From Candidatus Desulfobacula maris (GTDB lineage: Bacteria; Desulfobacterota; Desulfobacteria; Desulfobacterales; Desulfobacteraceae), in contig JACNHV010000208.1 in the NCBI GenBank assembly GCA_014383445.1, positions 1 to 37,671 of the forward strand: a stretch of 37,671 bases of DNA, read 5' to 3'. Each line of letters begins with the position of its first letter. Position 1 is the stretch's first letter. Below the pieces are notes generated by a model. It was not told the DNA's origin, ran no database searches, and saw only the letters and a list, made by a program, of their open reading frames with translations. Of the stretch, positions 1,164 to 34,778 are shown one piece after another. The translations under genes were made by a program, and so were the position numbers.

Positions 1164-1181
1164 TTTTAGTATCCTTAAATA

Positions 1182-2654
1182 TTATTTTATCAGTATTGGC
1201 ATCCCCATAACAGGCCAGATAACTAAAACAGCAAATGCAATTACGATCATTAATATGATGCTGGCCGGGATTCCATATAAGAAAAATTCTCCCGTGGTAA
1301 ACTGTTTTGAGTCATAGGCAATGGCATTGGGAGCAGCACCCACCAGAAGCAGGAAGGGCATGCCGGCGGTTACAAGTGCGGCAAACAAAATGACTTCAGG
1401 TGCCACTCCAAGATAGGGCGCAATAACCAGTGCAACGGGCAGAGAAATAGCAATGGCTGCCACATTCATGATAAAATTGGTCATCATCATGACAAAAAAA
1501 GCAATACTCATGACAAACACAAACCAGTGTGATTCCTGGAACATGGTCAGCCAGTTGATGGCCAGCCATTCTGCAGCTCCGGTTTGCCACAGACAAAAAC
1601 CAATGCTCATGGCACCGCCAAATAGCAGGATAATGTTCCATGGAATTGATTCAAGGTCCTTTATATCCAGAATACGCAATACAAAAAACAGAATCGTTGA
1701 AACAAGAATGATGGCTGTTTTACCGACAGTCTTTAAAATGGGTACAAACTGTTCGGCAGCCATGACAGATATGCAGCCAAAAATGATTATCAGGGCAATG
1801 ATTTCATTTTTAGTCATGCCTCCCATAGCATCATTCAATTTTTTTGCTTTTTCTCTGAGTCCTGGGATGGTTTTTCTTTCAGGTTTGAAAAAAACCATAA
1901 AAAATCCCCATAAGATGAATGTCATTATCCATCCAATGGGGAACATATAAAAGGTGAGTTCAAAAAAACTGACATCTCTTCCAATAATGTCTTTGAAAAA
2001 ACCAAGTGCAACTGCTCCCCTTGCCGCACCCAGCAATGTGACAATACTGCCGGCACCGGCAACAAAGGCCATTCCGATGAACAAGCCCTTCCCAAATTTT
2101 GTAGGGGTATCATCATCTGAATACATGGCATAGATGGTCATCAGAAGGGGGTACATGGTCGCGGCTACAGCCGTATGGGCCATGATGTGGGTCAGGGCTG
2201 CTGTTACAACAAAACAGCCAAGATAGATCATGCTGGTCTTCTCACCTACAATCATAAGCATTTTGTATGCAAGCCGCCTTGTAAGACCTGTTTTTGTAAA
2301 AACTATTCCAATAACCAGAGAACCAAAAATAAAAAGAACGGAAGGTGTCATGAAATCTGTAAATGCTTTTTGTGCAGGCCGGACTAAAAAAAGAACCTGT
2401 AAAACCCCTATGGTTAAACTTGTGACACCAATGGGAACGACCTCAAAAACCCACCAGGTCCCTCCCAGAAGAAATACTGCCAGAGCTCCCTTGGCTTCTT
2501 TGCTCAGGACAAAATGTTTCCCTGAGGGATCGATGGCATCAGGCCATGGCGGGGCAAAATTAACAACAAAAAATAGAATAAGACCAATTAATAGAAAAAG
2601 TATCCGTTTCCAGTCAACATTAGAGTCGGGTAAGGCTGCTGTATTATAGCTCAT
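1182..2654 (-). CDS. DASS/SLC13-family anion transporter
   Basis: A 490-residue polytopic membrane protein with about 12 hydrophobic segments, of a length usual for the divalent anion:Na+ symporter family (CitT, SdcS, NaDC relatives). The C-terminal half has a TNF-MNVAA segment and the VGAAPNAIAY signature that fits the family's second SNT/PPN region. In the first half the usual SNT motif is replaced by AHTAVAA near residue 160, and the TLLGAARG loop lacks the usual TPPN. Substrate cannot be proven. In a sulfate reducer, sulfate or a C4-dicarboxylate are the leading options, since DASS proteins are among known sulfate importers of such bacteria. It shares an operon with the CBS protein. Confidence 0.85.
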   Translation of the reverse strand: MSYNTAALPDSNVDWKRILFLLIGLILFFVVNFAPPWPDAIDPSGKHFVLSKEAKGALAVFLLGGTWWVFEVVPIGVTSLTIGVLQVLFLVRPAQKAFTDFMTPSVLFIFGSLVIGIVFTKTGLTRRLAYKMLMIVGEKTSMIYLGCFVVTAALTHIMAHTAVAATMYPLLMTIYAMYSDDDTPTKFGKGLFIGMAFVAGAGSIVTLLGAARGAVALGFFKDIIGRDVSFFELTFYMFPIGWIMTFILWGFFMVFFKPERKTIPGLREKAKKLNDAMGGMTKNEIIALIIIFGCISVMAAEQFVPILKTVGKTAIILVSTILFFVLRILDIKDLESIPWNIILLFGGAMSIGFCLWQTGAAEWLAINWLTMFQESHWFVFVMSIAFFVMMMTNFIMNVAAIAISLPVALVIAPYLGVAPEVILFAALVTAGMPFLLLVGAAPNAIAYDSKQFTTGEFFLYGIPASIILMIVIAFAVLVIWPVMGMPILIK

Positions 2655-2730
2655 GTTAATATTTATCTCCTAATAGTTTATATAAATCACCTAAGGGTCA
2701 TATCCGCCCTTTAATTTTAAAATTTGTTCT

Positions 2731-2759
2731 AAATAAGATAGGAAATTGCTTCTTGTCAA
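2731..2759 (-). promoter_or_regulatory. Candidate sigma-70-type promoter of the transporter-CBS operon
   Basis: Read on the minus strand, a perfect TTGACA (2759-2754) is followed after 17 bp by TTATTT (2736-2731), a weak -10. It lies about 75 bp upstream of the transporter start. An AGGAG ribosome-binding site precedes that ATG by 12 nt. This suggests the transporter can be transcribed independently of the upstream two-component genes. Confidence 0.4.
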
Positions 2760-2786
2760 GAAAATCTGAGAAAATGATAGTTTTTT

Positions 2787-3215
2787 TTATCCGCCATATC
2801 GCTGAAGAATTTCTTTGATTTTTTCCTCTGTTTGTTTTTCAACGATGAGCATTTTTTCTGCTTTTGCTTCTTTGATTTTTTTTGCAAGGGCTTCAAGGTC
2901 AGCCGGCTTTTCAAGGAAATCTGTGGCACCGATTTTCATGGCTTCAACTGTTTTTTCAATAGTGGCATAACCTGTAAGTAAAATGATCTGCAGTTCAGGT
3001 TTTTTATTTTTTATGGCCTTTAATGCTTCCATACCATCCATTCCCGGCATCTGAAAATCCATGACAATGGCATCAAATGACTCTTTTCCTATAATGGAAA
3101 GCGCTTGATCAGCAGATTCAGCAGTTGTCACCACCATACCCCGGGCTTGCATCCGTTCGGACATGATCTCCAGAAATTCTTTTTCATCATCTACAAGCAA
3201 TACTTTTTCCGACAT
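2787..3215 (-). CDS. Receiver-only response regulator (second of two)
   Basis: A 142-residue CheY-like protein. The acidic pair D9-D10, phospho-acceptor D53 (in IVMDFQMPG), T81 and K103-P104 are all present, so it should be phosphorylatable. The receiver occupies about residues 1-120. The remaining 20 residues are a charged, probably helical tail with no DNA-binding domain. AAGGAGA sits at ideal spacing before ATG. It is the last gene of the signalling cassette that starts at 5850, and the transporter operon follows 132 bp downstream. The output is unknown: it may act through protein contact or as the terminal receiver of a phosphorelay. Confidence 0.9.
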   Translation of the reverse strand: MSEKVLLVDDEKEFLEIMSERMQARGMVVTTAESADQALSIIGKESFDAIVMDFQMPGMDGMEALKAIKNKKPELQIILLTGYATIEKTVEAMKIGATDFLEKPADLEALAKKIKEAKAEKMLIVEKQTEEKIKEILQRYGG

Positions 3216-3269
3216 TCTCTTTCTCCTTATACTATTAATATGTCAGCCATATCAAATTGGCTTAAATAG

Positions 3270-3932
3270 TTAAATACATTTTGGCCACAAAAGACCAAAA
3301 CCTGTATTTTTGTTGTTTTTTTCAATGGATATATTTAGATACGAAATCAGGGCCAGATCTTCTTTTGACCTGAATATATCATCCATTATCTCTTTTTTAA
3401 CCCTGTTCATTGTAAACCAGATCAAAGGTTCTGATACATTTGTTCCAAATGAAATTTTCACCCCTTTTTCATTATCTGCCGCGCAACAGGCTGTTTCAAT
3501 GGCTCTCCAGATCATGTTCTCCAGGAAAAACAGGTTTGTTGAAACCAGCATGGGTGCTACCGGAGAAATGATTTCCAGTACTGCCCCCTGTCTTTCAACA
3601 AGCCGGGATGCCAGGTCCAGAACAAAAATGATTGTTTTTTCAAGGTCTGTAATTTCCATTGCCTGATCAACACTGTGGGAAAACCTGCTCATTTTTTTTA
3701 ATACAAGATCTGCTCTTTGTACCTGTCTTATCATCCGTTCCGAGATATCATTGATGCGTTCAAGTGAAAGGGGATGACCTTTTTTTTCGGCCATTAAGGA
3801 AAGATCTTTGAGCAGGCCCGCACTTTCATTGATAATGGCAAGGTTATTTTTAATTTCATGGGTTGCCGAGGCAGAAATGCTGCCAAAAAACCGAATACCT
3901 GCATGTGCAATTATATTTTCATTTTGTGCCAT
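3270..3932 (-). CDS. Histidine-kinase-like protein with degenerate ATPase domain, possible histidine phosphotransferase
   Basis: A 220-residue soluble protein from ATG 3932, chosen because GAGG lies 6 nt upstream; a GTG at 3944 is also in frame. An H-box (ATHEIKNNLAIINE, H25) and a two-helix dimerisation region fill residues 10-90. The following ATPase-like part is broken: the N-box Asn is replaced (ENMIWRAIETA), no DxGxG G1 box exists, and only a trace of the G2 region (TGFGL) remains at the extreme C-terminus. Known parallels are Spo0B and ChpT, which keep the DHp helices but lost ATP binding and act as phosphotransferases. Its start overlaps the end of the upstream kinase gene, implying coupled translation. 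Confidence 0.75.
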   Translation of the reverse strand: MAQNENIIAHAGIRFFGSISASATHEIKNNLAIINESAGLLKDLSLMAEKKGHPLSLERINDISERMIRQVQRADLVLKKMSRFSHSVDQAMEITDLEKTIIFVLDLASRLVERQGAVLEIISPVAPMLVSTNLFFLENMIWRAIETACCAADNEKGVKISFGTNVSEPLIWFTMNRVKKEIMDDIFRSKEDLALISYLNISIEKNNKNTGFGLLWPKCI

Positions 3933-5334
3933 CACTGGCCTCACTATTCTTTAAGGGCAGGATTACAGTGAAACAAGACCCCTTACCCAGCCGGCTTTTT
4001 ACCGTGATATCACCGCCAATTTCTTTTATCAGTCCGTAAATAATTGACAGACCAAGTCCTGAACCCCAATGATCGTTTTTCGATGAATAAAAAGGTTCAA
4101 AAATTTTATCGATATCCTCATCAGCAATACCTCTTCCATTATCGGAAACCATTATGGATATTTGGTCTCTTTTTTTTAATCTGATGGAGATAGAAAGTTG
4201 TCCGCCATCTTCCATTGCAGTAAAAGCATTTTCAATCAGGTTCAGAAAAATCTGCTGCAGGCTTCCTTTGTCACATTCAAAATTCGGAATTGTGTCCTTG
4301 TTATCAATTGATATGGTTATGCGCCTGCGATCGGCTTCCTTTTCAAGAAAGGCAAGCACCTGTTTTACGACTTCCCAAATATCCACGGGTTCGATACTGG
4401 GCTCCATGTGCCGGGCAAAGTCCAGCAGCCGCTGAGTGATGGTGCTGCACCGCTTTACCGTATCAAGAACGTCTTTTGCAAGGGAAATCAGCCGCTTATC
4501 CGAAGAAAAATCTTCCCTCAGTGTAAACAGATCCATAATCAACCCTGTTTTCTGGTTGATTATGGCCAGGGGGTTATTTATTTCATGGGCAACCCCTGAA
4601 GCCAGACGGCCGATGGAGGCCAGTTTTTTTTCATGTTCTGCATGGTGCAGGGCCTCGCTTCTTTTGCGATCTGCAGAATGAATACGCCCCACAAGATAGG
4701 TTGCCATGCCCATGATGGACAATAAAATCAACACAATACTGACAGCCAGGTATCCTATCAGCTTGAACCTGGGTTTGAACCACAGGTCTATTAGCCCTTT
4801 TTCACTTTTGGCCAGCACAAAAAATAAAGAGGAATCAGGTATCCTTGCATATCCTGCCATGACTGGTTTTTTATCTGGTGTAAGATCCTTCTCAATTCCG
4901 GCTTTTTCTTTGAATAGACTTGTATTGACAGCATTGGGTGTGCCCGTATTGCCGTAGTAAAAGGAGGTGGTTAGCAAAGTGCCGTCTTCATTGACAACAA
5001 ATATATCGTTGTCCTCTCCAGAATTTATAAGGGTAATATAATCCATGGCAGTTTTTCCAGGGTCTTTGGAAAAAGAAATGGAAACGATAGCAGCATTCAA
5101 CAGTTTTGATATGCTGCTTTTCACCTCATCTTCAATGGTCCGATGCGTGAGGCCAAACTCCACAAGGCTCATCACAAAAAGAGGCAAAAGGGCCATAAAA
5201 GAAGTAAATAGCACAATGAGCTTCCACTTGCGCGCAAAATTAAAACCAGTGTTCAGATGGTTGCTGGCACTATCCCGATGGTCCCAGGATGCGGGTTTAA
5301 GTTTTTGCAATTGCTTCATGATTTTGTCTGTCAA
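3919..5334 (-). CDS. Membrane-bound sensor histidine kinase
   Basis: A 471-residue kinase: cytoplasmic N-terminus, TM1 about 37-58, a periplasmic sensor of about 130 residues (Cache-like by size and position), TM2 about 192-215, a HisKA domain with H250 (SGVAHEINNPLAII), then a complete HATPase domain with N-box near 365-369, DNGRG at 398-402, an F-box (IFEPFYSS) and the SGLGLS G2 box. No HAMP or PAS domain is obvious. The start shown is TTG; an ATG five codons in is also possible and neither has a strong ribosome-binding site. It lies between a receiver-only regulator and the kinase-like protein, overlapping the latter. The ligand is unknown. Confidence 0.9.
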   Translation of the reverse strand: MTDKIMKQLQKLKPASWDHRDSASNHLNTGFNFARKWKLIVLFTSFMALLPLFVMSLVEFGLTHRTIEDEVKSSISKLLNAAIVSISFSKDPGKTAMDYITLINSGEDNDIFVVNEDGTLLTTSFYYGNTGTPNAVNTSLFKEKAGIEKDLTPDKKPVMAGYARIPDSSLFFVLAKSEKGLIDLWFKPRFKLIGYLAVSIVLILLSIMGMATYLVGRIHSADRKRSEALHHAEHEKKLASIGRLASGVAHEINNPLAIINQKTGLIMDLFTLREDFSSDKRLISLAKDVLDTVKRCSTITQRLLDFARHMEPSIEPVDIWEVVKQVLAFLEKEADRRRITISIDNKDTIPNFECDKGSLQQIFLNLIENAFTAMEDGGQLSISIRLKKRDQISIMVSDNGRGIADEDIDKIFEPFYSSKNDHWGSGLGLSIIYGLIKEIGGDITVKSRLGKGSCFTVILPLKNSEASDGTK

Positions 5335-5361
5335 TTTTAAAAATACGTCCCATACAGCAGT

Positions 5362-5850
5362 TTATTCAACTGCCTTAATTTTTTTATATGCCTTTTTCAG
5401 GCTTTCACTTAATAAGTTGATATCAACTGGTTTTTGCATATATGAAAAGGCACCCAGGTCCATGCATTTTTTTTTGTCCTGTTCAGATCCATGACCGGTC
5501 ATTACAATCACCTGGATTCGAGGGCAGGTCTGTTTTACCTGTTTTAGAAGTTCCATCCCATCAATCCCGGGCATTTTTAGATCAATTATCATCACCTCAG
5601 GCTCATCGCGTTGAATCTGAGCCAGCGCTGAGTTTCCATCGTAGACAACGGCAGTGCCCATATCCCTCATTCGAAGACGTTCTGACAGAGTTTGTACAAA
5701 CTCTTTTTCATCGTCCACCAGAAGGATTTTTGAAGGTACTTCGACATTGCATTTTTCAGACATATTTAGCTGGTGGTACACCTGGGTTTCCATGGCATCA
5801 TTTTTTGAGGGCTTGATAGCTGCTGTAAGTATTGCATTCTGCTTTTGCAT
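5362..5850 (-). CDS. Receiver-only response regulator (first of two)
   Basis: A 162-residue protein whose receiver domain starts near residue 40. D46-D47, phospho-acceptor D90 (VMIIDLKMPG), T118 and K140-P141 are present. The first 38 residues precede the domain and look unstructured. AGGT lies just upstream of ATG 5850, while an internal Met at residue 30 has no ribosome-binding site. There is no output domain. It heads the minus-strand cassette regulator-kinase-kinase-like-regulator, 28 bp before the kinase. It is the natural first receiver for that kinase. Confidence 0.88.
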   Translation of the reverse strand: MQKQNAILTAAIKPSKNDAMETQVYHQLNMSEKCNVEVPSKILLVDDEKEFVQTLSERLRMRDMGTAVVYDGNSALAQIQRDEPEVMIIDLKMPGIDGMELLKQVKQTCPRIQVIVMTGHGSEQDKKKCMDLGAFSYMQKPVDINLLSESLKKAYKKIKAVE

Positions 5851-5931: not shown

Positions 5932-7176
5932 ATGTCAAACATGAAAAACAAGATACCTGAAAAAGCAAGACTGCTTGAAAAACTTAGAAAAAATGGATTT
6001 ATGGTCCCGGATTTTATTTATGTGTCAGCTGATAAATTCATCAACGAAGATTTCAGCCTTCTTGATTTATTTTTAGACAAACACCGTGAAAGTTATAAGG
6101 TCATTGCAAGAAGTGCTCATCCCCTGGAATCTGAGTATAATGGCGGTACCTTTGATTCCATTGAAACATATGCGGATATTGGCGGAATAAAATATGCGCG
6201 AAACCGTATGATTAAAATAGCCGAAACTTCGAAACAACTATCCATCCAGCGACAGCAGAAGTTCAACAACGCACCTGAAATTGATATTAATGAAATGGGC
6301 ATTGTTGCCATGCCTTTTGTTAATGGCTCCAGTGTCATGGCAAAAATGATTTTTAATAACTGGGAATTCGGTTATTGCAGAAACCGCACGCATAAGGTCC
6401 AAAGCGAACCCTTCATCACCAAGGTACCCCATGATCAAAGGCTGTTGAAACTTTCAGAAGACATACAAAAGGCTTTGGGGTTTAAATGCGAGATCGAATA
6501 TATTATTTCCGCTGAAGGAGAGATTTATGTGGTGCAGGCCAAGGATATCTCAAATATAGATACTTTGGAAGAAAAAGAGAATGAGTGTTTCATAAAGCTT
6601 GATGGCATCAGGCGCATGCGAAAGCGGAGAAATTACAGGGAAAGGCCGGTTTATGTAATGGACAACAAGGCCTTTTATATCAATATCATCAGCCAGTGCG
6701 AGGATTTCGTCCAGGAAGGCAAAGAGCCAAAGCCTGATATCAATGACGTCATATCCAGCATAAAGGCGTATGAAAAGGAACTTGAATCTTTTGCTCTGAG
6801 GCACCAGCGGTTTGCTGTGCTGGGGTTTTCCATACAGGACTCAAGCGAGCTTTACCAGATCGCCACCCATTACCTGGAAGAGTCTCCTGAACTTCAGAAA
6901 ATTCTGTCAAAAGCCCTGCACAAAAATCTTTACAAAATTGATATTTTTCTGGCTGAAGCAGACACATTGATTGCAAAGGACAAATTCAGAATCAACCTGT
7001 GCAGCCATGATGCATATGGTATTGACACAGTACGAAATCCCCTCTGGTCAGCCTATTGGAGTGTCGACCGGCATGATGAGGTAATCAAAGAATTTTTACG
7101 TCTTGGGTTTAAGACCGGTGACACCATTGGAATTGATATTGATGCTGAAGGCAGGCCCATAATTTCTCGTCACTAA
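5932..7176 (+). CDS. PEP synthase/PPDK N-terminal-like ATP-binding protein
   Basis: A 414-residue soluble protein. Residues about 55-215 resemble the pyruvate/ATP-binding (PPDK_N, ATP-grasp) domain of PEP synthase: RSAHPLESEYNGGTFDSIET corresponds to the RSSA...SFAGQ..T loop, and EIEYIISAEGEIYVVQAKDI to the E-x-GE-Y-VQAR strand. The swivelling phospho-His domain and the PEP-binding barrel of full-length enzymes are missing. The C-terminal 200 residues are charged and helical with no recognised fold. Full PEP synthase chemistry is therefore unlikely; an ATP-dependent ligase or phosphotransfer role is possible. It is divergent from the two-component cassette and 126 bp before the Ehr operon. 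The start is uncertain between ATG 5932 and ATG 5941. Confidence 0.75.
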   Translation: MSNMKNKIPEKARLLEKLRKNGFMVPDFIYVSADKFINEDFSLLDLFLDKHRESYKVIARSAHPLESEYNGGTFDSIETYADIGGIKYARNRMIKIAETSKQLSIQRQQKFNNAPEIDINEMGIVAMPFVNGSSVMAKMIFNNWEFGYCRNRTHKVQSEPFITKVPHDQRLLKLSEDIQKALGFKCEIEYIISAEGEIYVVQAKDISNIDTLEEKENECFIKLDGIRRMRKRRNYRERPVYVMDNKAFYINIISQCEDFVQEGKEPKPDINDVISSIKAYEKELESFALRHQRFAVLGFSIQDSSELYQIATHYLEESPELQKILSKALHKNLYKIDIFLAEADTLIAKDKFRINLCSHDAYGIDTVRNPLWSAYWSVDRHDEVIKEFLRLGFKTGDTIGIDIDAEGRPIISRH

Positions 7177-7302: not shown

Positions 7303-9261
7303 ATGGGTCATTTTTTTCTATCAATACTGATAATTCTATTTGGCGGCTTTTTATCCCTTGTTTTAGCACGGCAAGTTAAATTAATGAGATTTACAGCTGT
7401 TTTTTTCTTAAGCATTGGTTGTTTTTTGGGGTTAATGGATGCTGTTTTAAAACTCATACAGCCAGGTATTGCCGGCGCATCCTTTAGATATTTGAATGTT
7501 TTTTCTCTTGCATTTAAAATGGATGAACTTTCTGGTTTTTTTCTTGTGATCATTTTTGCTATTTGTCTTATTGCCGCGATTTACAGCTTTCATTATATGG
7601 AGAATTCAAGAAACTCTTTGAGAACAGCGGTTAACTATTTTTTCTTCAGTATTCTAATTGCCTCCATGGCATTGGTAGTAACCGCAGCAAATATGATCAC
7701 CTTCATGCTGTCCTGGGAAATCATGTCCCTGTCATCTTTTTTCCTGGTTATTTACAAACACCATTCAGCTGAAAGTCGAAAGGCCGGGTATCTTTATTTT
7801 ATTTTTTCACATGTTGGGGCCATGTTCATATTTGCTGCATTTGGAATCGTTTATGGCTATACGGGTAGTTTTGGTTTTGAAGATATGGGTTCTCTTCCCG
7901 AAACAGCAAAAATTCTGGTATTTATTTTTTCATTTATTGGTTTTGGTTCAAAAGCAGGTGTATTTCCCTTTCATGTCTGGTTACCACATGCCCATCCTGC
8001 CGCTCCAAGTCATATTTCTGCGGTCATGTCCGGTGTCATGATTAAAACAGGTATTTACGGCATTATAAAAATGTATATTCTTTTGAATTTGCACACTGCT
8101 CTTTTTGGGAATATTGTTCTTTTTGCCGGAGTTATTTCGGGTATTCTGGGTATCGTATATGCCCTTGGCCAGCAGGATCTTAAACGGTTACTGGCCTATT
8201 CCAGTGTTGAAAACATAGGCATTATTTTAATTGGGTTGGGTGTCGGAATGATTGGCGTTTCATCGAAAAATCCTTTGATGGCCGTTCTTGGATTTACAGG
8301 AGGATTTCTTCACATTCTCAATCATTCCATTTTTAAATCCCTTTTGTTTATGGGTGCAGGAATGGTTCTTCATAAAACAGGAACCCGTTCCATTGATGCT
8401 CTGGGCGGATTATTAAAAAATATGAAAATTACCGGACTTTCAGTTATAATTGGCTCTCTGGCTATCTGTGGGCTACCGCCCTTTAACGGATTTGTGGGGG
8501 AATTTTTTATATATATCGGTGGATTTAAAGGTGTTGCTCTTGATAAATCAGCCTTTGTCATGAGTTGTTTTGCAATTATCAGCCTTGCTGTTATTGGTGG
8601 GTTGGCACTGGCCTGTTTTACAAAGGTAATCGGTATTGCCTTTCAAGGAGAACCAAGGACTGACGCTGCAGTTAATATAGATGAAAAAGGGCCGAGCATG
8701 CTTTTTGCCATGTCGATTCTTGCCTGTGCCTGTGTAATCATCGGTATATTCCCAAAGCTAATTCTTTGGATGCCTGTTAAAGCCGTATCAGCTTTGGGAC
8801 TTGGAATTGGCCGTGTTCCTCCTGAACCATTTGGGCAGATGGCTGGAAATATTACACTTGCAGCAACTATTTTTCTTGTCTCTGTATTGTTGGTGACAGC
8901 AATCCGATGGTTTTTTTACAGAAATAAAACGATTACAAGATCAGGCACATGGGGATGTGGTTTTACTCAGCCAACGGTTAAAATGCAGTATACAGGGTCT
9001 TCATATGCATCGTTTATTCTTGATTTTTTCCGACCTGCCGCACCTTTAGACGAAGATCATCCAAAAATCACAGGACGATTCCCTTTAAATACATACTATA
9101 CGAGTCATGTGAATGATATTGCAGAACTTCACATGAAAAGGGTAATCGTTAATCCAATTCTGTTTTTATTTGATAAATTAAGATGGATACAACATGGTGA
9201 TATTCATCTTTATATTGGTTATATTTTACTGGCTATAATTTTGTTGCTGTTTTTTATATAA
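7303..9261 (+). CDS. Ehr complex antiporter-like membrane subunit (HyfB/NuoL-like)
   Basis: A 652-residue polytopic protein of the complex I/Mrp antiporter family (proton_antipo_M). Family landmarks include GSKAGVFPFHVWLPHAHPAA around residues 210-230, the YSSVENIGII helix, and LNHSIFKSLLFMGAGMV. It carries a C-terminal extension with a final transmembrane helix, as in HyfB. It should form one ion-translocating channel of the membrane arm. GGGGA precedes the ATG. It is the first gene of a six-gene operon ending at 14630. The substrate ion (H+ or Na+) is not deducible by eye. Confidence 0.9.
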   Translation: MGHFFLSILIILFGGFLSLVLARQVKLMRFTAVFFLSIGCFLGLMDAVLKLIQPGIAGASFRYLNVFSLAFKMDELSGFFLVIIFAICLIAAIYSFHYMENSRNSLRTAVNYFFFSILIASMALVVTAANMITFMLSWEIMSLSSFFLVIYKHHSAESRKAGYLYFIFSHVGAMFIFAAFGIVYGYTGSFGFEDMGSLPETAKILVFIFSFIGFGSKAGVFPFHVWLPHAHPAAPSHISAVMSGVMIKTGIYGIIKMYILLNLHTALFGNIVLFAGVISGILGIVYALGQQDLKRLLAYSSVENIGIILIGLGVGMIGVSSKNPLMAVLGFTGGFLHILNHSIFKSLLFMGAGMVLHKTGTRSIDALGGLLKNMKITGLSVIIGSLAICGLPPFNGFVGEFFIYIGGFKGVALDKSAFVMSCFAIISLAVIGGLALACFTKVIGIAFQGEPRTDAAVNIDEKGPSMLFAMSILACACVIIGIFPKLILWMPVKAVSALGLGIGRVPPEPFGQMAGNITLAATIFLVSVLLVTAIRWFFYRNKTITRSGTWGCGFTQPTVKMQYTGSSYASFILDFFRPAAPLDEDHPKITGRFPLNTYYTSHVNDIAELHMKRVIVNPILFLFDKLRWIQHGDIHLYIGYILLAIILLLFFI

Positions 9262-9275
9262 AATAAGGATCTTAA

Positions 9276-9350
9276 ATGAAATTATTTGAGCGCAATTTTT
9301 TTTTCAATTTTAATGATTTTCGATTTTGCATAAATGGGAAGACTTTATGA
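9276..9350 (+). CDS. Possible 24-codon upstream ORF coupled to the HyfC-like gene
   Basis: ATG 9276 has AAGGAT ending 5 nt upstream and opens a 24-codon frame that ends at TGA 9348-9350. That stop overlaps the ATG (9347-9349) of the HyfC-like gene in an ATGA arrangement. The peptide is Phe- and Asn-rich with no motif. It may be a translational-coupling leader peptide rather than a functional product. Chance occurrence in AT-rich DNA is possible. Confidence 0.35.
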   Translation: MKLFERNFFFNFNDFRFCINGKTL

Positions 9351-10267
9351 TTGAATCCATTATTCTTTGGCTTCTTGCAGTTTTGGTGGCACCTTTTTTC
9401 TCAGGGGTTATACTTAAAGTAAAGGCTTTTTTCGGGGGAAAAAAAGGGCCACCCCTTCTGATTAATTACTATACCTTGATCAAGCTTTTTAAAAAAGGAT
9501 CGGTTTATAGTACCAGTACCACAGTCATGTTTAAGCTGGGACCCATCATTTCATTGGGAACTGCATTAGTCGTACTTATGTTTCTGCCCATAGCCGGACA
9601 GGACCCGATTTTTTCTTTTAAAGGAGATATTCTTTTTATTTTATATCTCATGGGTCTTGGCCGATTTTTTGTAATTGCCGCTGCCATGGACACTGCGTCT
9701 CCATTTGAAGGTATGGGTGCTGCAAGGGAAGCCTATTTCCCGATTATCTGTGAAGCCACAACCTTTATGATTTTGATCTTTTTTTATAGATTAACAGGTG
9801 AGCTCCAGCTATCGGCTTATTTTACAGAAGGGAACACCATCGAGTTGTGGAATTTGACGGGTGCGCCATTATTATTTGTAGTGATTGCATTTTTTATTAT
9901 TCTTCTGACGGAAAATTCAAGGGTTCCTGTTGATGACCCTGCAACACACCTGGAGCTGACCATGATTCATGAAGTCATGGTTTTAGATCACAGCGGACCT
10001 GATTTTGGACTCATTGAACTGGGATCATTTTGTAAGCTTTTTTTCTATTCAACAATAGTTTCAAGGCTGATTTTCCCTTTTGATTTCGGGTCTTCAGCTA
10101 TTGGTTTTTTTGTCTTTATCGCAGGACTTATCATAGTATATGTGGCAGTGGGTGTGACTGAATCGGTCATTGCCCGCTATAGAATGGACAAAGTTCCACA
10201 ATTTGTCCTGACATCATTTGCTTTGGCCTTTTTTGCAACCATTATCACTTTGGAGTTTATCAAATGA
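9347..10267 (+). CDS. Ehr complex membrane subunit (HyfC/NuoH-like)
   Basis: A 306-residue membrane protein of the NuoH/HycD/HyfC family, which links the redox arm to the ion-pumping arm. The conserved loop RVPVDDPATHLELTMIHEVM near residues 205-225, followed by LDHSG, is diagnostic of the hydrogenase-type branch of this family. A TTG at 9326 would add seven residues, but ATG 9347 has GGGAAG six nt upstream and is preferred. Its stop overlaps the ATG of the next gene (10264), so translation is coupled. About eight transmembrane helices are expected. Confidence 0.9.
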   Translation: MIESIILWLLAVLVAPFFSGVILKVKAFFGGKKGPPLLINYYTLIKLFKKGSVYSTSTTVMFKLGPIISLGTALVVLMFLPIAGQDPIFSFKGDILFILYLMGLGRFFVIAAAMDTASPFEGMGAAREAYFPIICEATTFMILIFFYRLTGELQLSAYFTEGNTIELWNLTGAPLLFVVIAFFIILLTENSRVPVDDPATHLELTMIHEVMVLDHSGPDFGLIELGSFCKLFFYSTIVSRLIFPFDFGSSAIGFFVFIAGLIIVYVAVGVTESVIARYRMDKVPQFVLTSFALAFFATIITLEFIK

Positions 10268-10908
10268 TACTACATCCGGTTGATACAATTTTATCACTTG
10301 TACTACTGTCTGTTTTATTTGCCTTTGGTGCAAGCCGGCTCCCCGTATTGATAAAGGTGATCGCTTTCCAGGGAATTGTAGTTTCCATGGTTCCTTTTTT
10401 TATTGGTCACGATATGAATGCCGGTGGAATGGTCTTCACCTTTGCAACTTTAATAATCAGAGGAATTATAATTCCCATGAGTATTTATGTGGCCATAAAA
10501 AAGGTGGACATAAAAAGAGAGGTGGAACCCATTATAGGTTTTCACGCCTCCATACTATGCGGTCTTGGATTAATCGTTGCAGCAACATATATCAGCAAAC
10601 AATTGAATATTCCTTCCATCAGTGACTATAAACTTTTGTTTCCCGTCGCCATAGCGCTTCTGGTAACGGGAATGTTCCTTTTGATTGCCAGAAGAAATGC
10701 CATAGCCATGGTATTGGGTTATATAATGATGGAAAATGGTATTTATCTTGTTGGAACAACAATTTCAATTCGTGCCCGACATATTGTTGAATTCGGAATT
10801 TTACTGGATATACTTGCCGGCGTTATGATAATGGCCATTATACTTCAAAATATCAAACGAACCTTTGATGACGTTGATACAGCTAACTTAAGAACTTTAA
10901 AGGAATAG
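10264..10908 (+). CDS. Ehr complex membrane subunit (HyfE-like)
   Basis: A 214-residue protein with six or seven hydrophobic helices, of the HyfE type, whose C-terminal half is related to NuoK/MrpC. The segment GYIMMENGIYLVGTTI near residues 155-170 keeps the membrane-embedded Glu seen in NuoK-like subunits, which is thought to take part in proton transfer. It overlaps the preceding gene by 4 bp and is followed 10 bp later by the second antiporter-like gene. Size and position match the hydrogenase-4 operon order. Confidence 0.88.
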   Translation: MILHPVDTILSLVLLSVLFAFGASRLPVLIKVIAFQGIVVSMVPFFIGHDMNAGGMVFTFATLIIRGIIIPMSIYVAIKKVDIKREVEPIIGFHASILCGLGLIVAATYISKQLNIPSISDYKLLFPVAIALLVTGMFLLIARRNAIAMVLGYIMMENGIYLVGTTISIRARHIVEFGILLDILAGVMIMAIILQNIKRTFDDVDTANLRTLKE

Positions 10909-10918
10909 GTATTATTTC

Positions 10919-12349
10919 ATGGTAGAGATCGTCTTTCTGGCTCCTTTCATAACAGGCATTATTGCTTTTTTTATTCCAAAAGCGATGGGCCGCAGGCTTT
11001 TAGTAGGTACTGGAGCGGTTCATCTTTTTCTTTCACTACTTCTTTGGAAAAATAGACCTGAAGCAATTTTTAATGATTATTTTGCAGTGACACCTGAAGG
11101 TCTGTTATCTCTTTTAGTTATTTCACTTTTATTCTTTCTGATTTCCATCTATACGATTGCGTATCTTAAAGAAAGTGAAATCCAAAATGAAAATATATTT
11201 ACAGGGTTTATGCTCTTGTTTTTATCAACCATGACAATGGTAACCTTATCAGATCATATCATGGTAATGTGGATAGCTATTGAAGCCACAACACTTGCCA
11301 GTGCGCCCCTTATTTATACCCATAGATCTGCTGCATCCCTTGAAGCAACATGGAAATATATACTGATATGTTCCGTTGGTATTGCCATGGCGCTTCTGGG
11401 GTCGGTTTTTATTACACTTGCCATGGACATAGGTAAGGTAGATGCGCCCCTGTCTTTTTCAGCACTTACATTGGTGGCAAAACAACTGGATCCCATGTGG
11501 TTAAAAGCAGGATTTGTCTTCATATTGGTTGGATATGGGACAAAAATGGGTCTTGCACCCATGCACACCTGGCTTCCCGACGCCCATAGCGAAGCGCCCA
11601 GCCCAGCTTCCGCACTATTATCCGGTGTGCTTTTAAATTGCGCATACCTGGGTATATTTAAAACCAATAAAATTATGCATGCAGCAGGGTTAAATGATTT
11701 TTCAGGTACGATTCTCATTGCTTTTGGTTTGATTTCTATCCTGGCAGCAGCAACATTTATCCTGAAACAAAACGAATACAAAAGAATGCTTGCCTATTCC
11801 AGTATCGAGAACATGGGTATCATAGCAGTTGGAACAGGTATCGGCGGTATTGCAGCATATGGGGCGATGATCTGCATGATCCACCATAGCTTGATCAAAT
11901 CCTCCCTGTTTTTGTCATCGGGGAATATTTTACTGGGGTATGGTGACAGATTCATTAAAAATACAGGAAATATGGTCAGCCGCATGCCCAAAACCTTTGT
12001 GGCTTTTTTCGCCGGGTTTGCAGGCATTTCAGGATTTCCACCCTTTGGTATTTTTATCGGTGAAATGTTTATTATTATCGGTGCATTCAAAACCGGCCAC
12101 TATATAGCCGCAGGTATTTTTATTTTAAGCCTTTGTGTCATTTTTGCAGGATTTGCCAATCAGGTCATGAAAATTTCCTTTAATGATTCAGATTCTACAA
12201 AAACAATTGGCCTGAAAGAAAAGGCAAGCCTGGTTTGGCCTCAATATATATTACTTTTAACATCCCTGGTATTATGTTTCTATATGCCGGATACATTATA
12301 TCAAACAATAATTGATGCAGTGACTGCCATTGGCGGAGGACTTAAATGA
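10919..12349 (+). CDS. Ehr complex second antiporter-like subunit (HyfF/NuoN-like)
   Basis: A 476-residue polytopic protein of the NuoL/M/N-MrpD family. It has a family-typical helix with GYGTKMGLAPMHTWLPDAH around residues 200-220, then YSSIENMGIIAVG and IHHSLIKSSLFLSSGNI. It carries the conserved Lys and His residues used for ion conduction in these subunits. It is shorter than the HyfB-like partner and lacks the C-terminal extension. Its stop overlaps the start of the large-subunit gene (ATGA at 12346-12349). Confidence 0.9.
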   Translation: MVEIVFLAPFITGIIAFFIPKAMGRRLLVGTGAVHLFLSLLLWKNRPEAIFNDYFAVTPEGLLSLLVISLLFFLISIYTIAYLKESEIQNENIFTGFMLLFLSTMTMVTLSDHIMVMWIAIEATTLASAPLIYTHRSAASLEATWKYILICSVGIAMALLGSVFITLAMDIGKVDAPLSFSALTLVAKQLDPMWLKAGFVFILVGYGTKMGLAPMHTWLPDAHSEAPSPASALLSGVLLNCAYLGIFKTNKIMHAAGLNDFSGTILIAFGLISILAAATFILKQNEYKRMLAYSSIENMGIIAVGTGIGGIAAYGAMICMIHHSLIKSSLFLSSGNILLGYGDRFIKNTGNMVSRMPKTFVAFFAGFAGISGFPPFGIFIGEMFIIIGAFKTGHYIAAGIFILSLCVIFAGFANQVMKISFNDSDSTKTIGLKEKASLVWPQYILLLTSLVLCFYMPDTLYQTIIDAVTAIGGGLK

Positions 12350-13857
12350 CAACTGCTTTTATAGAAATTTCAAATGGTGAAAAGCTGGCAAGAGAACAGA
12401 TCCCTCATCTTGTTTTTGATGAATTTCAAAAAAATGCCATGGAGATTGTAAAAGAAGGTGGAAAAGTTGTTCAGTATTTCGGCTATCAGGATGGTTCATC
12501 CATTAAACTTTTGGCTGTATTGAGAACTGACAAGCTTTTTATAGCGGGCTGTGATGCGCCGGACACATATCCTTGTTTTAGTCAAACCTGTGAGCCATTT
12601 CATATGTTTGAAAGAGAGATTGCAGAACAATTTGGTATAAAGCCTGAAGGTCACCCCTGGTTGAAAATGGTCAGGTATCATCCAAACTATAGAGAAAAAA
12701 TGCCTGATGTTTTTGGCAATGATTATAAAGAAGATATCCCGGGCAATTATAACTATTACCAGGTTAAAGGTGATGAAATCCATGAGGTTGCAGTAGGGCC
12801 GGTTCATGCAGGTGTAATAGAGCCTGGCCATTTCCGGTTTAACTGCATTGGTGAAAGGGTACTCCATCTGGAAATACAGCTGGGCTACCAGCACAGGGCA
12901 GTGGAAAATCTGCTCTATAATGTCCTGGCAAAAAGATTGCCTATCCTTGCTGAAAGTATTGCCGGTGATACAGCTATTGGTCACAGCCTCTGCATGGCAC
13001 AGGCTGTTGAAGCTCTGACAAAGGTTAAACCGGATAAAGGCGCTCAAATTATTCGAAGCATTGCTCTGGAACTGGAACGACTTGCAAATCATATAGGTGA
13101 TCTTGGGGCTTTAAGCGGTGATGTTGCATTTTTACCGCCAGCCAATTATTTTGGACGTATGCGAGGAGATTTTTTAAATCTGTCTCTTCTGATTTGCGGG
13201 AACAGGTTTGGAAAAGGATTGGTGCGACCCGGCGGGGTTCGTTTTTCACTTTCCGATGATCTTCGAAAAACCATGGATGAGCGGCTCAAAGAATTAAAAC
13301 CGCAGGTGGAACATGTTCTGGACCTTCTTTTTGCAGCTTCAACAGTGCGGGCACGTTTTGAAGACTGCGGTATTGTTAGCAATAATGATGCAGAACACTT
13401 AGGCCTTGTGGGACCGGCAGGCAGAGCCAGCGGTATCTCCTATGATGCTAGACGCTGTTTTCCCACGGAACATTATGGGCAAATAGATATTCCTGAAAAT
13501 AAAAAACCATCAGGAGATGTATATGCCCGTGCAAGAGTTAGATATGATGAAGTATTGCAATCGATTAAAATCATTCAATCTTTAATTGATACACCTGTTG
13601 AAACAAATATTGTGGAGGATGTTAATTATAACCTGCCTTCCTCTTCTTTTGTGGTAACAATAAATGAAGCATGGCGGGGTGAAGTATCCCATGCGTTGTT
13701 GACGGATCAAAACGGGAAAATACTTCGATACAAAGTTAAGGATCCTTCTTTTCATAACTGGAACGGTCTTGCCATGTCTCTGCGGGATACGGGGATATCG
13801 GATTTTCCCTTAAATAATAAAAGTTTTAACCTTTCTTATTGTGGATTTGATCTTTGA
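12346..13857 (+). CDS. Ehr complex large subunit (NuoC-NuoD/HyfG-like) lacking Ni-binding cysteines
   Basis: A 503-residue fusion of a NuoC-like domain (residues about 1-130, with FHMFEREIAEQFGI) and a NuoD/hydrogenase-large-subunit-like domain (about 150-503, with HLEIQLGYQHRAVENLL). In [NiFe] hydrogenases the catalytic site is held by RxCGxC and a C-terminal DPCxxC. Here the aligned stretches read ESIAGDTAIGH (residues 203-213) and DFPLNNKSFNLSYCGFDL (486-503), so the four cysteine ligands are gone. The C-terminus is therefore also unlikely to undergo maturation cleavage. These changes define the Ehr class, related to both group 4 hydrogenases and complex I. The redox substrate is unknown. 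Confidence 0.9.
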   Translation: MTTAFIEISNGEKLAREQIPHLVFDEFQKNAMEIVKEGGKVVQYFGYQDGSSIKLLAVLRTDKLFIAGCDAPDTYPCFSQTCEPFHMFEREIAEQFGIKPEGHPWLKMVRYHPNYREKMPDVFGNDYKEDIPGNYNYYQVKGDEIHEVAVGPVHAGVIEPGHFRFNCIGERVLHLEIQLGYQHRAVENLLYNVLAKRLPILAESIAGDTAIGHSLCMAQAVEALTKVKPDKGAQIIRSIALELERLANHIGDLGALSGDVAFLPPANYFGRMRGDFLNLSLLICGNRFGKGLVRPGGVRFSLSDDLRKTMDERLKELKPQVEHVLDLLFAASTVRARFEDCGIVSNNDAEHLGLVGPAGRASGISYDARRCFPTEHYGQIDIPENKKPSGDVYARARVRYDEVLQSIKIIQSLIDTPVETNIVEDVNYNLPSSSFVVTINEAWRGEVSHALLTDQNGKILRYKVKDPSFHNWNGLAMSLRDTGISDFPLNNKSFNLSYCGFDL

Positions 13858-13886
13858 CAATAAGAAAAATAAAAAGAGAGTCTTAA

Positions 13887-14630
13887 ATGCTCAATACACT
13901 TAAAAATAGATTTGAACAGGGTTATAGAACATGCAGCTATCCTAAAGAAAAACCTGCTGTATTTGAACGGTATCGTGGAAGACCCTTAATACAAAAAGAT
14001 GTTTCTCAAAAGATAGTTGAAATGTGTGCAAATGCATGCCCCCAGGATGCCATTGATATTGGTTTAAAAAAAATTGATATGGGAAGATGTGTATTCTGCG
14101 GTACATGTGAACGCATCTCCAAAGGGGCCTTTGTTAAGTTCACTGGGGATTTTGAAATTTCCACTTCCAAAAAAGAACATCTGCTGACTGATGGAGATCT
14201 TCCAGCTCTTGCAGAACACTCAAAACAGCATTTCAAAAAATTATTTGGCCGGTCTTTACAACTGAGACAGGTGTCAGCCGCAGGCTGTAATGCATGTGAA
14301 GCAGATCTGAACGTATTGGCAACCCCGTTTTTTGATCTGGCCCGTTTTGGTATAAACTTTGTGGCATCCCCCCGCCATGCAGATGGCATTGTCGTGACGG
14401 GACCTGTATCCAGAAATATGAAAACGGCATTATTAACGACATATGAAGCGATTGCAGATCCAAAGGTTGTCATTGCCGTGGGAAGCTGCGCCCTGACAGG
14501 CGGCCCTTTTTTGGGAAGTCCTGAAATAACTGAGGGTCTTGACACTATTTTGCCTGTAGATCTTTTTATACCAGGCTGCCCTCCGCACCCTCTGACCAAC
14601 CTTCACGCCCTGTTGACATTTTTTAAATAA
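13887..14630 (+). CDS. Ehr complex small subunit with N-terminal ferredoxin domain (NuoB/HyfI-like)
   Basis: A 247-residue protein. The N-terminal ferredoxin-like part has C47 and C51-Pro, then C68-x2-C71-x2-C74; the first two Cys of motif 1 and the last Cys of motif 2 (position 78 is Ser) are missing. It therefore probably binds one [4Fe-4S] cluster rather than two. The C-terminal NuoB/hydrogenase-small-subunit part (about 125-247) keeps all ligands of the proximal cluster: C134-x2-C137, C201 (GSCALTGG) and C231 (PGCPPHP). It is the last gene of the operon. No separate HyfH/NuoI-type ferredoxin gene is present, so this fused domain probably supplies the electron entry path. Confidence 0.9.
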   Translation: MLNTLKNRFEQGYRTCSYPKEKPAVFERYRGRPLIQKDVSQKIVEMCANACPQDAIDIGLKKIDMGRCVFCGTCERISKGAFVKFTGDFEISTSKKEHLLTDGDLPALAEHSKQHFKKLFGRSLQLRQVSAAGCNACEADLNVLATPFFDLARFGINFVASPRHADGIVVTGPVSRNMKTALLTTYEAIADPKVVIAVGSCALTGGPFLGSPEITEGLDTILPVDLFIPGCPPHPLTNLHALLTFFK

Positions 14631-14669: not shown

Positions 14670-15008
14670 TTAGAAGTCATCGTACACTGTTTTGGAGTTC
14701 TTGCGAACAGATTTTGGCAGGAGCGCCAGCTTTTCCCTGGTTTGAGACAGGTATTTTGTCAGAGCGCTTTCATCTGCCTCAAACAGCTTGATGCCGACAA
14801 TGGTTGCCACTTCGAAAACGACTCCGAGTTCACATTTGAGATTGCATTTTTCAATGCGTTGCAGCAGACTCCTGGAAATACCAGCTCGATCAGCCAATTC
14901 CTGAGCAGTAAGCTTGCGCTCATTACGCGCTTCTCGGATCAACGCGCCGAGCAAGGCAGCCGCATCACGGCTATAACGTGAGTAAATACGTGTGATAGAT
15001 TTTGCCAT
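14670..15008 (-). CDS. HipB-like XRE-family transcriptional regulator (orphan antitoxin-type)
   Basis: A 112-residue DNA-binding protein. A Cro/C1-type helix-turn-helix covers about residues 20-75, with TAQELADRAGISRSLLQRIE as the HTH. The start at the second of two tandem ATGs is preferred because GGGAAG immediately precedes them; an upstream ATG at 15038 also exists. This type is usually the antitoxin gene of a hipBA-like pair, but no HipA gene follows: the gene converges on the Ehr operon 39 bp away. Its base composition is visibly more GC-rich than its neighbours, suggesting transfer. Three candidate operators lie upstream, consistent with autoregulation. Confidence 0.8.
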   Translation of the reverse strand: MAKSITRIYSRYSRDAAALLGALIREARNERKLTAQELADRAGISRSLLQRIEKCNLKCELGVVFEVATIVGIKLFEADESALTKYLSQTREKLALLPKSVRKNSKTVYDDF

Positions 15009-15020
15009 CATCTTCCCTTT

Positions 15021-15040
15021 GGTTCTCATATAGATCATAA
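15021..15040. promoter_or_regulatory. Candidate operator A of the HipB-like regulator
   Basis: GGTTCTCATATAGATC begins at 15021 and matches operator B at 13 of 16 positions. It overlaps the candidate -10 element (15042-15037) of the regulator gene and ends 13 bp before its ATG, a classic repressor position. Confidence 0.5.
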
Positions 15041-17916: not shown

Positions 17917-19329
17917 ATGGATCAGCTAAAGCAACTGAATGAAAGAATCATCAGGCGTGTTAATGTCAATTTAGAGGAATTTGATTTTAATACTGAAGAT
18001 TTTGTTAGAAATTCTCTTGAATATGATAAAATGCTGGAGTTTTACGCATTTTATGGGATCACATCCCAACATCCTATTTATTTTCATTTCAAAAATTCCA
18101 ATATTGCCGGCAGTTATTTTCTTGGAAAATGTTATGTTGGAAGATCAGCCATTTATAAAAGTGATGTGAGAGGAGATGAACTAAAAAGGATGGGTGACAC
18201 TATCCGGTATAAAAAGGATGTTCCTCTTGTTGAAGATGAAATGATCACGATAAGGGACAGTCTTCTTTATAAGACACTTGTTCACAGCAACTCTCACAAT
18301 CTTGAGAGTCCTGAACAATTTGGTATCCACAATACCATTGCTGCTCATTATGTAAATATTCATGGGACAACCCTTGAGGGATGTTTTTTAGGTCCTTTTG
18401 CAACCGTGGATCTTATGAATCTGCATTCCTGCATTGTGGGTGAGTTTTCATATGTTCAGGCAGGAGAACTTTTCCATAGGAAAATTGATCCTGGAACAGT
18501 GTGGATACGGAGTAAGAATTTTGAGTTTAAATATAAGTTTAATAAAGAGGTTTTGGACAATTTTGTAGGGGTAAATTCTTCATACCAGCCCCGCGGAATA
18601 ATCTATGATTTTGTTAAAGAACGCGAGCAGGATTATGAAAAGTTATTTGATGTAGTGAACCTTGAGCCTATAAAAGCCCCAAATAGCTCTGCCGTCAACA
18701 GATATGCCTTGATTCAAGGCAAAACACAAATTGGTGAAAATGTTCTTATATCTCAAAGGGCTTTTTTAGATAATGCTGTAATGGGCAATGGTTCCAATGC
18801 ACAGGAAAATACTTATATTATTCATTCAAATCTTGCCGGTTTGTGTATCACAGCTCATGGCGGAAAGATAATACATGCAGATATCGGTCTTGAAACCTTT
18901 GTTGGATTTAATTGCTTTCTAAACGGAAAACCAAATGCACGAATTGAGATCGGCGAAGGATGTATTATTATGCCACACACCATTATAGATCCTCATACTC
19001 CGCTCAAAATACCTGATGAACATCTGGTGTGGGGATTTATCGGGTCTGAAGAAGATGTTGAAAATAATACCCTTTCTCTTGATGCGCTTGCTGAAATAAG
19101 GGATACCCTGAGAATGGGGAAAATGGTTTTTACCGGTAATGGTTCTGTTTTTATTGATGCCTTCCGCAGGAGGATCAGTCAGATTTTACTGGCAAATGGT
19201 GCGTTGTTTAATAACGGTGAAAACCGAGGCCACGCTCAAGATGATCAAAATATATCCTTTAATACTATTCAGCCCTATAGAACAGGAGAGCGTAAGGGCT
19301 TGTATCCTTCCATCAGGATTAACCCGTAA
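17917..19329 (+). CDS. Left-handed beta-helix (hexapeptide-repeat) transferase-like protein
   Basis: A 470-residue protein with two stretches of imperfect hexapeptide repeats (about 60-200 and 260-370; for example IGENVLISQRAFLDNAVMG and IEIGEGCIIMPHTIID), the pattern of LbetaH acyl- or sugar-transferase-like folds. There is no nucleotidyltransferase domain, so this is not GlmU. The C-terminal 100 residues are helical and charged. AAAAGGAT precedes the ATG. It lies 11 bp upstream of the LD-carboxypeptidase gene, so the two are probably co-transcribed. I cannot name the substrate. Confidence 0.75.
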   Translation: MDQLKQLNERIIRRVNVNLEEFDFNTEDFVRNSLEYDKMLEFYAFYGITSQHPIYFHFKNSNIAGSYFLGKCYVGRSAIYKSDVRGDELKRMGDTIRYKKDVPLVEDEMITIRDSLLYKTLVHSNSHNLESPEQFGIHNTIAAHYVNIHGTTLEGCFLGPFATVDLMNLHSCIVGEFSYVQAGELFHRKIDPGTVWIRSKNFEFKYKFNKEVLDNFVGVNSSYQPRGIIYDFVKEREQDYEKLFDVVNLEPIKAPNSSAVNRYALIQGKTQIGENVLISQRAFLDNAVMGNGSNAQENTYIIHSNLAGLCITAHGGKIIHADIGLETFVGFNCFLNGKPNARIEIGEGCIIMPHTIIDPHTPLKIPDEHLVWGFIGSEEDVENNTLSLDALAEIRDTLRMGKMVFTGNGSVFIDAFRRRISQILLANGALFNNGENRGHAQDDQNISFNTIQPYRTGERKGLYPSIRINP

Positions 19330-34582: not shown

Positions 34583-34778
34583 TTTTACCCCTGCAATGTG
34601 CGTGATTGTGAGACGGTCTTTGTCCTAACGCATAGTAAAAAGGGAGTCCACACTTTTACTGGTGTGCTAAGTTCCGGAAAGTCACGGAAAAGCCTAAAGG
34701 TATAATTGGACACCCACCTTTTGAACCACTGGTTCAAAGCCTTAACAAGCAACACGGCAGTTTGTGGGGGTAATTGTA
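34583..34778 (+). ncRNA. ssrS: 6S RNA
   Basis: About 195 nt. The ends pair (TTACCCC at 34585-34591 with GGGGGTAA at 34766-34773) to close the terminal stem. The 3' half contains CACCTTTTGAACC-ACT-GGTTCAAAGCC, closely matching the E. coli 6S segment CACCTTGAACCAAGGGTTCAAGGG, and an AAGCCTAAAGGT segment matching AAGCCTTAAAACTG. Its position just downstream of zapA is the conserved location of ssrS. 6S RNA mimics an open promoter and sequesters sigma-70 RNA polymerase in stationary phase. The exact ends are estimates. Confidence 0.88.

Follow-up and report, generated by a model that had tools for sequence, protein, structure and literature searches.

What can a group 4 hydrogenase complex do once its large subunit can no longer bind nickel? 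The question is raised by a six-gene operon (positions 7303-14630, + strand) of Candidatus Desulfobacula maris, located on contig JACNHV010000208.1 of assembly GCA_014383445.1, of which a stretch of 37,671 nucleotides was analyzed as a whole (the window). Operon order and subunit homology agree with hydrogenase 4: the genes are HyfB-, HyfC-, HyfE-, HyfF- and HycE-like, followed by a fused HyfH-HyfI. Open reading frames (ORFs) and profile matches both yield the exactly six subunits counted in an earlier interpretation of the letters alone, the sequence-only reading, which had also proposed that the operon encodes an Ehr (energy-converting or Ech hydrogenase-related) complex. The founding paper on Ehr is reportedly that of Marreiros in 2013, and such complexes are suspected of being oxidoreductases coupled to ion translocation. 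Our literature search found no measured activity of Ehr complexes. In the accessible parts of two papers, Ehr function 'remains unknown' (PMC10284858) and the role of Ehr in Geobacter sulfurreducens has 'never been investigated' (PMC7894505), in line with the earlier statement that electron donor, acceptor and ion are unresolved. We propose, with a probability of roughly 0.55, that the complex descends from a HycE/Hyf-type hydrogenase, does without nickel and would still act as a redox-driven ion pump with a rebuilt acceptor pocket.

The large subunit, here EhrL (503 amino acids, 12346-13857), was assigned by homology, alignment, tree and Foldseek, and its best solved relative is Escherichia coli HycE (7z0s_E; phmmer E 5.8e-41; Foldseek TMq 0.79). 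The ligand motifs RxCGxC and DPCxxC of [NiFe] group 4 hydrogenases are replaced by SIAGDT (L1; residues 204-209, 12955-12972) and by NLSYCGFDL at the C-terminus (L2; residues 495-503, 13828-13854); residues 487-499 read FPLNNKSFNLSYC. With the E. coli sequence from a plasmid-collection record (L098) as reference, HycE C241/C244/C531/C534 align with EhrL A206/T209/S497/G500. In an alignment of the window protein with the best 80 of 503 relatives (63-96% identity), A206/T209 occur in 81/81 rows and S497/G500 in all 80 rows that reach L2, with cysteine in none. The loss of all four nickel-binding cysteines and the replacement of both motifs, as claimed in the sequence-only reading, are therefore borne out. 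Relatives were further sorted by profile score into type A, the clade of the window (at least 700 bits), type A' (400-700), type B (about 265-320) and type C (about 160-215), giving a wider Ehr-type set of 149 rows (89 A, 32 A', 20 B and eight scored C, one of them a truncated type B). A single cysteine stands at a ligand position in two of these rows, at A206 in the type A' protein L163 and at S497 in the type C protein L097 of Mycobacterium branderi, and more than one in none. Four cysteines displaced but present, the outcome that the earlier interpretation had set against itself, were found in neither alignment. The sole cysteine of the L2 region, C499, precedes the second ligand position by one residue. 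It is conserved in each of the 88 type A rows extending that far and in 30/32 type A' rows, and is Ser or Ala in 20/20 type B rows and the two other A' rows; on this ground a role as displaced nickel ligand or as persulfide ligand is rejected. A Pfam scan of 29 window ORFs revealed no hydrogenase maturation gene, as the sequence-only reading had stated for the vicinity; elsewhere in the genome, which is 94% complete, HypF is present and HypD was not found. A 'genetically processed C-terminus' was considered as an Ehr hallmark and dropped because several sampled true hydrogenases also end at CTER.

Phylogeny points the same way. A tree of 59 rows, in which Ehr-type proteins are included by homology and published Ehr reference sequences are not among the rows, was run with all columns and with the L1 and L2 columns removed. 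In the latter, 40 Ehr-type proteins lie on one side of a 100/100 branch and seven NuoD rows form their own group (100/99); none of the 12 sampled hydrogenases (L197 and L200 with their C-terminal parts only) falls on the Ehr side, so that the placement within true [NiFe] group 4 hydrogenases that would have spoken against an Ehr complex was not obtained. When the all-column tree is rooted on NuoD, which is an assumption, the Ehr clade arises from among these hydrogenases, which are paraphyletic, and HycE-type proteins are its neighbors. Such an origin inside the group 4 radiation fits descent from a hydrogenase, and the rooted topology fits an ancestral hydrogenase that lost its NiFe site once. 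Without the motif columns, type A (100/97) and type C (99/98) each form one group, type C with the caveat that L096 and L097 are long branches meeting in the all-column tree. In that tree the type B label is not clean, as Allomeiothermus L094 stands beside A/A' and L177 alone. A group-4-like operon, the missing nickel cysteines and a clade apart from both NiFe hydrogenases and NuoD together place the window operon among the Ehr complexes, a known kind. Its group-4-like make-up is shared with the Ehr of G. sulfurreducens (GSU0739-0745), Nitrospira and Margulisbacteria, and the available text of PMC10284858 and PMC6349859 reports the Nitrospira and Margulisbacteria large subunits to be devoid of NiFe-centre-binding residues; this likeness, and likewise the difference that the small subunit of the window, EhrS, is a HyfH-HyfI fusion without N6a, rests on descriptions and not on direct sequence comparison.

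The emphasis of the sequence-only reading on this particular copy needs correcting, as the copy is nothing unusual. Of 394 Desulfobacterota genomes, at least 12 carry type A and at least 77 carry type A or A', lower bounds because at most three candidates were scored per genome; an additional genome (G331) scores A' across the whole ORF, and Ehr also occurs on plasmids of aerobic bacteria. The description of the host as a sulfate reducer is supported: its genome (4.85 Mb in 400 contigs) encodes a DsrA above the profile cut-off, and the closest relatives are Desulfobacula and other Desulfobacteraceae.

The vacated site has been remodelled. In a comparison of 35 A/A'/B rows with the 12 hydrogenases and seven NuoD rows, 19 positions were near-invariant in Ehr and rare in the other two groups. 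Fifteen of them fall within four active-site segments, namely the beta1-beta2 loop, L1, the canopy helix and L2, with a combined length of 51 of 503 residues (hypergeometric p 4e-13, for segments based on published landmarks whose limits were fixed after the 19-residue list was known). This concentration in the old NiFe site indicates that the vacated pocket is under selection and, judged by residue conservation, the EhrL pocket is selected for something other than nickel.

Much of the remaining machinery is retained. Landmarks were taken from the E. coli formate hydrogenlyase (FHL) structure paper (PMC9474812), and the subunit residue counts cover rows of 0.9 to 1.3 times the length of the window protein. 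EhrL E159, H249, R360, E402 and R444 (HycE E193, H284, R395, E437 and R478) are present in 81/81 rows. E159 (12820-12822), which lies in the beta1-beta2 loop and corresponds to the proton-donor glutamate of HycE, is also present in all 149 wider rows; H249, E402 and R360 belong to the proton path, R444 is the canopy arginine, and N248 takes the canopy serine position. The HyfC/NuoH-like subunit (9347-10267; PF00146) has seven of nine HycD E-channel landmarks (E135, E196, R113, E143, Y107, E210 and E216) in 67/67 rows. Its listed TTG start at 9326 is probably seven codons too early and the true start 9347, as the ORF in L011, the nearest relative, opens with the same MIESIILW. Both antiporter-type subunits conserve charged residues: the HyfB-like protein (652 amino acids, 7303-9261; Proton_antipo_M; NF005086 at 569 bits, below the cut-off of 667) has E139, K217, K248, K345 and E400 in 56/56 rows, and the HyfF-like protein (476 amino acids, 10919-12349; PF00361; NF005044 at 345 bits, below the cut-off of 610) has E122, K209 and K327 in 73/73 and E382 in 71/73. 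K217 and K209 of the respective proteins occupy the position of Leu208 in HycC. The membrane part is completed by a HyfE-like subunit (214 amino acids, 10264-10908; PF00420; NF008556 at 97 bits, below the cut-off of 136).

EhrS (247 amino acids, 13887-14630), assigned by profile matches, joins the HyfH ferredoxin domain to the NuoB-related HyfI. The cysteines of the proximal [4Fe-4S] cluster N2 (C134, C137, C201 and C231, with hydrogenase-type CxxC spacing; 14286-14579) and the N6b set (C51, C68, C71 and C74) are conserved in 76/76 rows. Together with C47, the latter set (14025-14108) would bind one [4Fe-4S] cluster at the N6b position, and three of the four N6a ligands are missing in at least 75/76 rows; N6a and N6b are what we take to be the appropriate names for the clusters of this domain. 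A small subunit was located for 131/146 large subunits, two of the 131 being the true hydrogenases L098 and L131. N2 and N6b are complete in 84/84 untruncated type A and 26/26 type A' small subunits found. Type B small subunits have no ferredoxin domain and retain N2 in all nine untruncated rows once Allomeiothermus is set aside; the latter has the ferredoxin domain and has lost N2. All four N2 cysteines are missing, with the N6b set kept, in M. branderi (L097:11312-12106) and Allomeiothermus silvanus (L094:11278-12150 and L211:8263-9135). The retention of proton-path, pump and cluster residues argues that the EhrL complex is not a relic.

From this pattern we infer how the redox-driven pump might work. 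A low-potential soluble donor, most likely ferredoxin, would feed the single N6b cluster of EhrS, from where electrons would pass to N2 and on to an acceptor in EhrL, bound in the rebuilt pocket that the NiFe center has vacated. The acceptor would be protonated via E159, and turnover would be relayed by the E-channel of the HyfC-like subunit to the two antiporter-type subunits, which would move H+ or Na+. Redox turnover, donor, direction and ion are all inferred here. If there is redox turnover, a menaquinone-type quinone is our best guess for the acceptor, though somewhat worse than an even bet. The genome also has two RnfD/NqrB genes and an RnfC-like match below cut-off.

Several observations weigh against this proposal. 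The complex I residues for the quinone headgroup, Nqo4 H38 and Y87 according to the accessible part of PMC7684303, are absent from EhrL, which has I158/E159 and G207 there. The canopy aspartate, described as important for quinone reduction in the text available from PMC9474812, is N495 in 79/81 rows. In the membrane part, HycD E199 and E201 are replaced by A206 and H208 of the HyfC-like subunit, in a poorly aligning loop; the middle lysine of the HyfF-like subunit is N240 and its H328 counterpart is Cys; and HycC D354 is retained in neither antiporter-type subunit. HycE is the best structural match of the AlphaFold2 model of EhrL (pLDDT 76.6), whose active-site loops 151-161 and 486-503 have a pLDDT below 50 and are unreliable. 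The window operon has no linked donor gene. A menaquinone-synthesis marker in 77/77 A/A' genomes (73 with PF02621 of the MqnA/D family, four with MenD over cut-off) does speak for menaquinone, but this count is weak for want of a base rate, and the Riflemargulisbacteria that bear Ehr reportedly have no full quinone pathway (PMC6349859). A true NuoD scores over cut-off in 64 of these 77 genomes, and Ehr is therefore not simply a complex I substitute; replacement, considered for the own genome in which EhrL is the only Complex1_49kDa gene, is not the rule. The strongest counter-evidence is twofold: the quinone residues are missing, and in some relatives the electron path is broken. In M. branderi and Allomeiothermus, electrons could not get to the pocket via N2, so that the family as a whole does not depend on this transfer. 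A non-catalytic reading in terms of ion stress is thereby kept alive.

According to that reading, the complex would be a machine for ion homeostasis without catalytic turnover, a pump gated by a ligand or, as a sensor, by the redox state of its clusters, with the old active site serving as a binding or mechanical site. It is an unlikely account of the window, and still the most serious competitor in our view. It accommodates the two lineages that lack N2 cysteines and keep the N6b set, and it would suit the fluoride riboswitches that lead type C operons in 7/7 loci, the Alicyclobacillus type C large subunit (L212), which has no pump genes around it within 15.4 kb of retrieved sequence, and the company of type A loci, near which DASS-type anion transporters (26/89), CBS-domain proteins (27/89) and ClC channels (6/89) are encoded, as well as the HTH-PTS_EIIA_2 regulators near type A' loci (20/33). 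These neighbor counts have no genomic control and many loci are truncated contigs; moreover, the presence of all eight N2 and N6b cysteines in every one of the 84 untruncated rows of the window clade is hard to explain without electron transfer. A redox-driven pump supplied by a formate dehydrogenase (FDH) encoded elsewhere and docking on EhrS is a more doubtful idea, which bears on the donor only and is compatible with the redox pump that we favor. The accessible parts of the literature propose such an FDH-Ehr for Margulisbacteria and Saganbacteria (PMC6349859) and report that all Ehr subunits of G. sulfurreducens are more abundant on formate than under hydrogen-containing conditions (PMC7894505). 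Against it, no HycB or FDH gene was found in the 29 window ORFs or in the ten neighbor-family representatives that were scanned, the other neighbors being unscanned.

For a sulfur-metabolizing host, a sulfane-sulfur reductase of the MBS/Mbx type is attractive. MBS/Mbx of Pyrococcus is likewise nickel-free, related to group 4 hydrogenases and equipped with antiporter subunits, and C499 lies near the pocket in nearly all A/A' rows. MBS catalysis, however, depends on a three-cysteine proximal cluster, and MBS lacks the MbhL E21 glutamate (PMC7684303, in the text available), whereas the window complex retains four N2 cysteines with CxxC spacing as well as the counterpart of that catalytic-loop glutamate; as C499 is moreover replaced by Ser or Ala in type B and two A' rows, we consider this function improbable. 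Operon order and subunit homology would also fit a genuine [NiFe] hydrogenase whose ligands are displaced, or a decaying relic. This is contradicted by the alignments and hardly credible: the only cysteine near L1, C216, is not retained in the type A' rows compared, and replacement residues that are invariant in 81 rows make decay unlikely.

The complex can be compared with characterized systems. E. coli FHL and hydrogenases 3 and 4 (HycE, HyfG) are its best match in fold and sequence and share the Glu/His/Arg of the proton path and most E-channel landmarks; the window differs in its missing nickel ligands and in the antiporter lysines opposite Leu208, and neither HycB nor FDH/FdhF was found in the 29 scanned ORFs. 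Complex I (NuoD/NuoB/NuoH) shares the fold, the N2 position, the E-channel and the antiporter subunits. N248 stands at the canopy position of N185 in NDUFS2 according to the FHL paper, and Asn occurs there in just one sampled NuoD row. Unlike complex I, the window has no counterparts of H38/Y87, no tandem-cysteine N2 and no NADH module in the operon, and EhrL reaches 181 bits against a NuoD model with a cut-off of 360.

The map of losses (nickel ligands, N6a, quinone His/Tyr) and of retained features (pump, proton path, N2, N6b) makes the function testable: it predicts two [4Fe-4S] clusters, no nickel, no H2 and an acceptor in the new pocket. For Geobacter, Ehr was suggested to help make H2 from formate (PMC7894505, as far as its text was available), a role that would be unlikely if the Geobacter subunit also lacks the nickel ligands.

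The type C branch offers an independent physiological handle on the same architecture. The fluoride riboswitch (RF01734) heads its operons in L096, L097, L129, L130, L133, L209 and L212, of which L209 and L212 were assigned to type C by score and motif and stand outside the tree. It lies 141 to 503 bases before the first Ehr-type ORF in six loci, among them L097 with an intervening NUDIX gene, and 1.6 kb before that ORF in L129. No such riboswitch was found in 17 stretches of other types (the window, L091-L095, L139, L150, L177-L179, L210, L211 and L213-L216), of which L091/L216 and L094/L211 derive from the same plasmids, the search not extending to the remaining type A/A' loci. A fluoride link for the window operon was discarded, as neither the window nor its genome has the riboswitch. 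Our literature search for a connection between fluoride and Ehr led only to a remark of 2010 that the riboswitch motif occurs upstream of 'formate hydrogen lyase' genes (PMC2864571, in the part available). What is new beyond this remark is that, by alignment and tree, the riboswitch-led genes are devoid of the nickel ligand set and, for the five rows represented in the tree, make up a single clade. Part of the Ehr family may thus be ion-stress machinery rather than respiratory enzymes. It is tempting, and in our judgment improbable, to extend this to the entire nickel-less Hyf family as a radiation of ion-stress pumps, with one loss of the NiFe site, redox-competent types A/A'/B that have a new pocket free of metal and coupled to protons, a fluoride-switched type C, and lineages such as M. 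branderi and Allomeiothermus in which the electron path to the pocket is disconnected and the complexes may be ligand-gated antiporters. Genes for DUF190 and crcB or enolase/pyrophosphatase are close by in the annotated loci L096, L097 and L212. The lone Alicyclobacillus large subunit (L212:6938-8434) has a fluoride riboswitch of its own, and neither pump nor small-subunit ORFs were found around it in the fetched sequence.

The genes near type A loci vary in order and orientation; DASS and CBS genes are near none of the 33 type A' loci. A hexapeptide-repeat protein is encoded near 46/89 type A loci (17917-19329 in the window). The regulator with HTH_17 and PTS_EIIA_2 domains, both confirmed by Pfam in three proteins, also occurs near 8/89 type A and 4/14 type B loci, three of the latter (L150, L167 and L168) sharing it with an A' complex. 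At A' loci it is on the same strand and upstream in 16/20 cases, 5.4 to 7.9 kb ahead of the large-subunit gene; loci with this upstream, same-strand arrangement include L138, L139, L150-L154, L159, L160, L162, L163 and L170 (L139 type B, the others A'). Type A' and type B complexes are paired in one cluster in L150, L166, L167 and L168 of four Desulfobacterota genomes and in L091/L216 of a Variovorax plasmid, and in L150 and L168 the regulator gene sits between the two complexes.

In the window, the minus strand from 600 to 5850 encodes a CBS protein, a DASS anion transporter, response regulators and a histidine kinase, parts of which reappear in varying order near type A Ehr. A gene for 414 amino acids (5932-7176) lies directly upstream of the operon on the same strand, has no significant Pfam match and has homologues near Ehr in 8/89 type A loci; its interpretation as a PEP-binding protein was a mere impression and was abandoned, as matches with E values as high as 10 included no PEP-binding family. 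At the end of the operon and convergent with it, the minus strand (14670-15038) encodes an HTH regulator weakly resembling HipB-type antitoxins (below the model cut-off), for which no partner was recognized among the scanned neighbors. Elsewhere in the genome, a NiFe-type hydrogenase large subunit (L003, G000:C246:8669-9727) contains one in-frame TGA, possibly encoding selenocysteine. Group-4-like large-subunit matches in three further genomes (G008:C27:8794-9846, G158:C26:15642-16703 and G045:C15:22659-23705) have two in-frame TGA each, for which recoding to selenocysteine or frame damage are possible explanations. The window also encodes a 6S RNA (34585-34774; RF00013, 94.2 bits).

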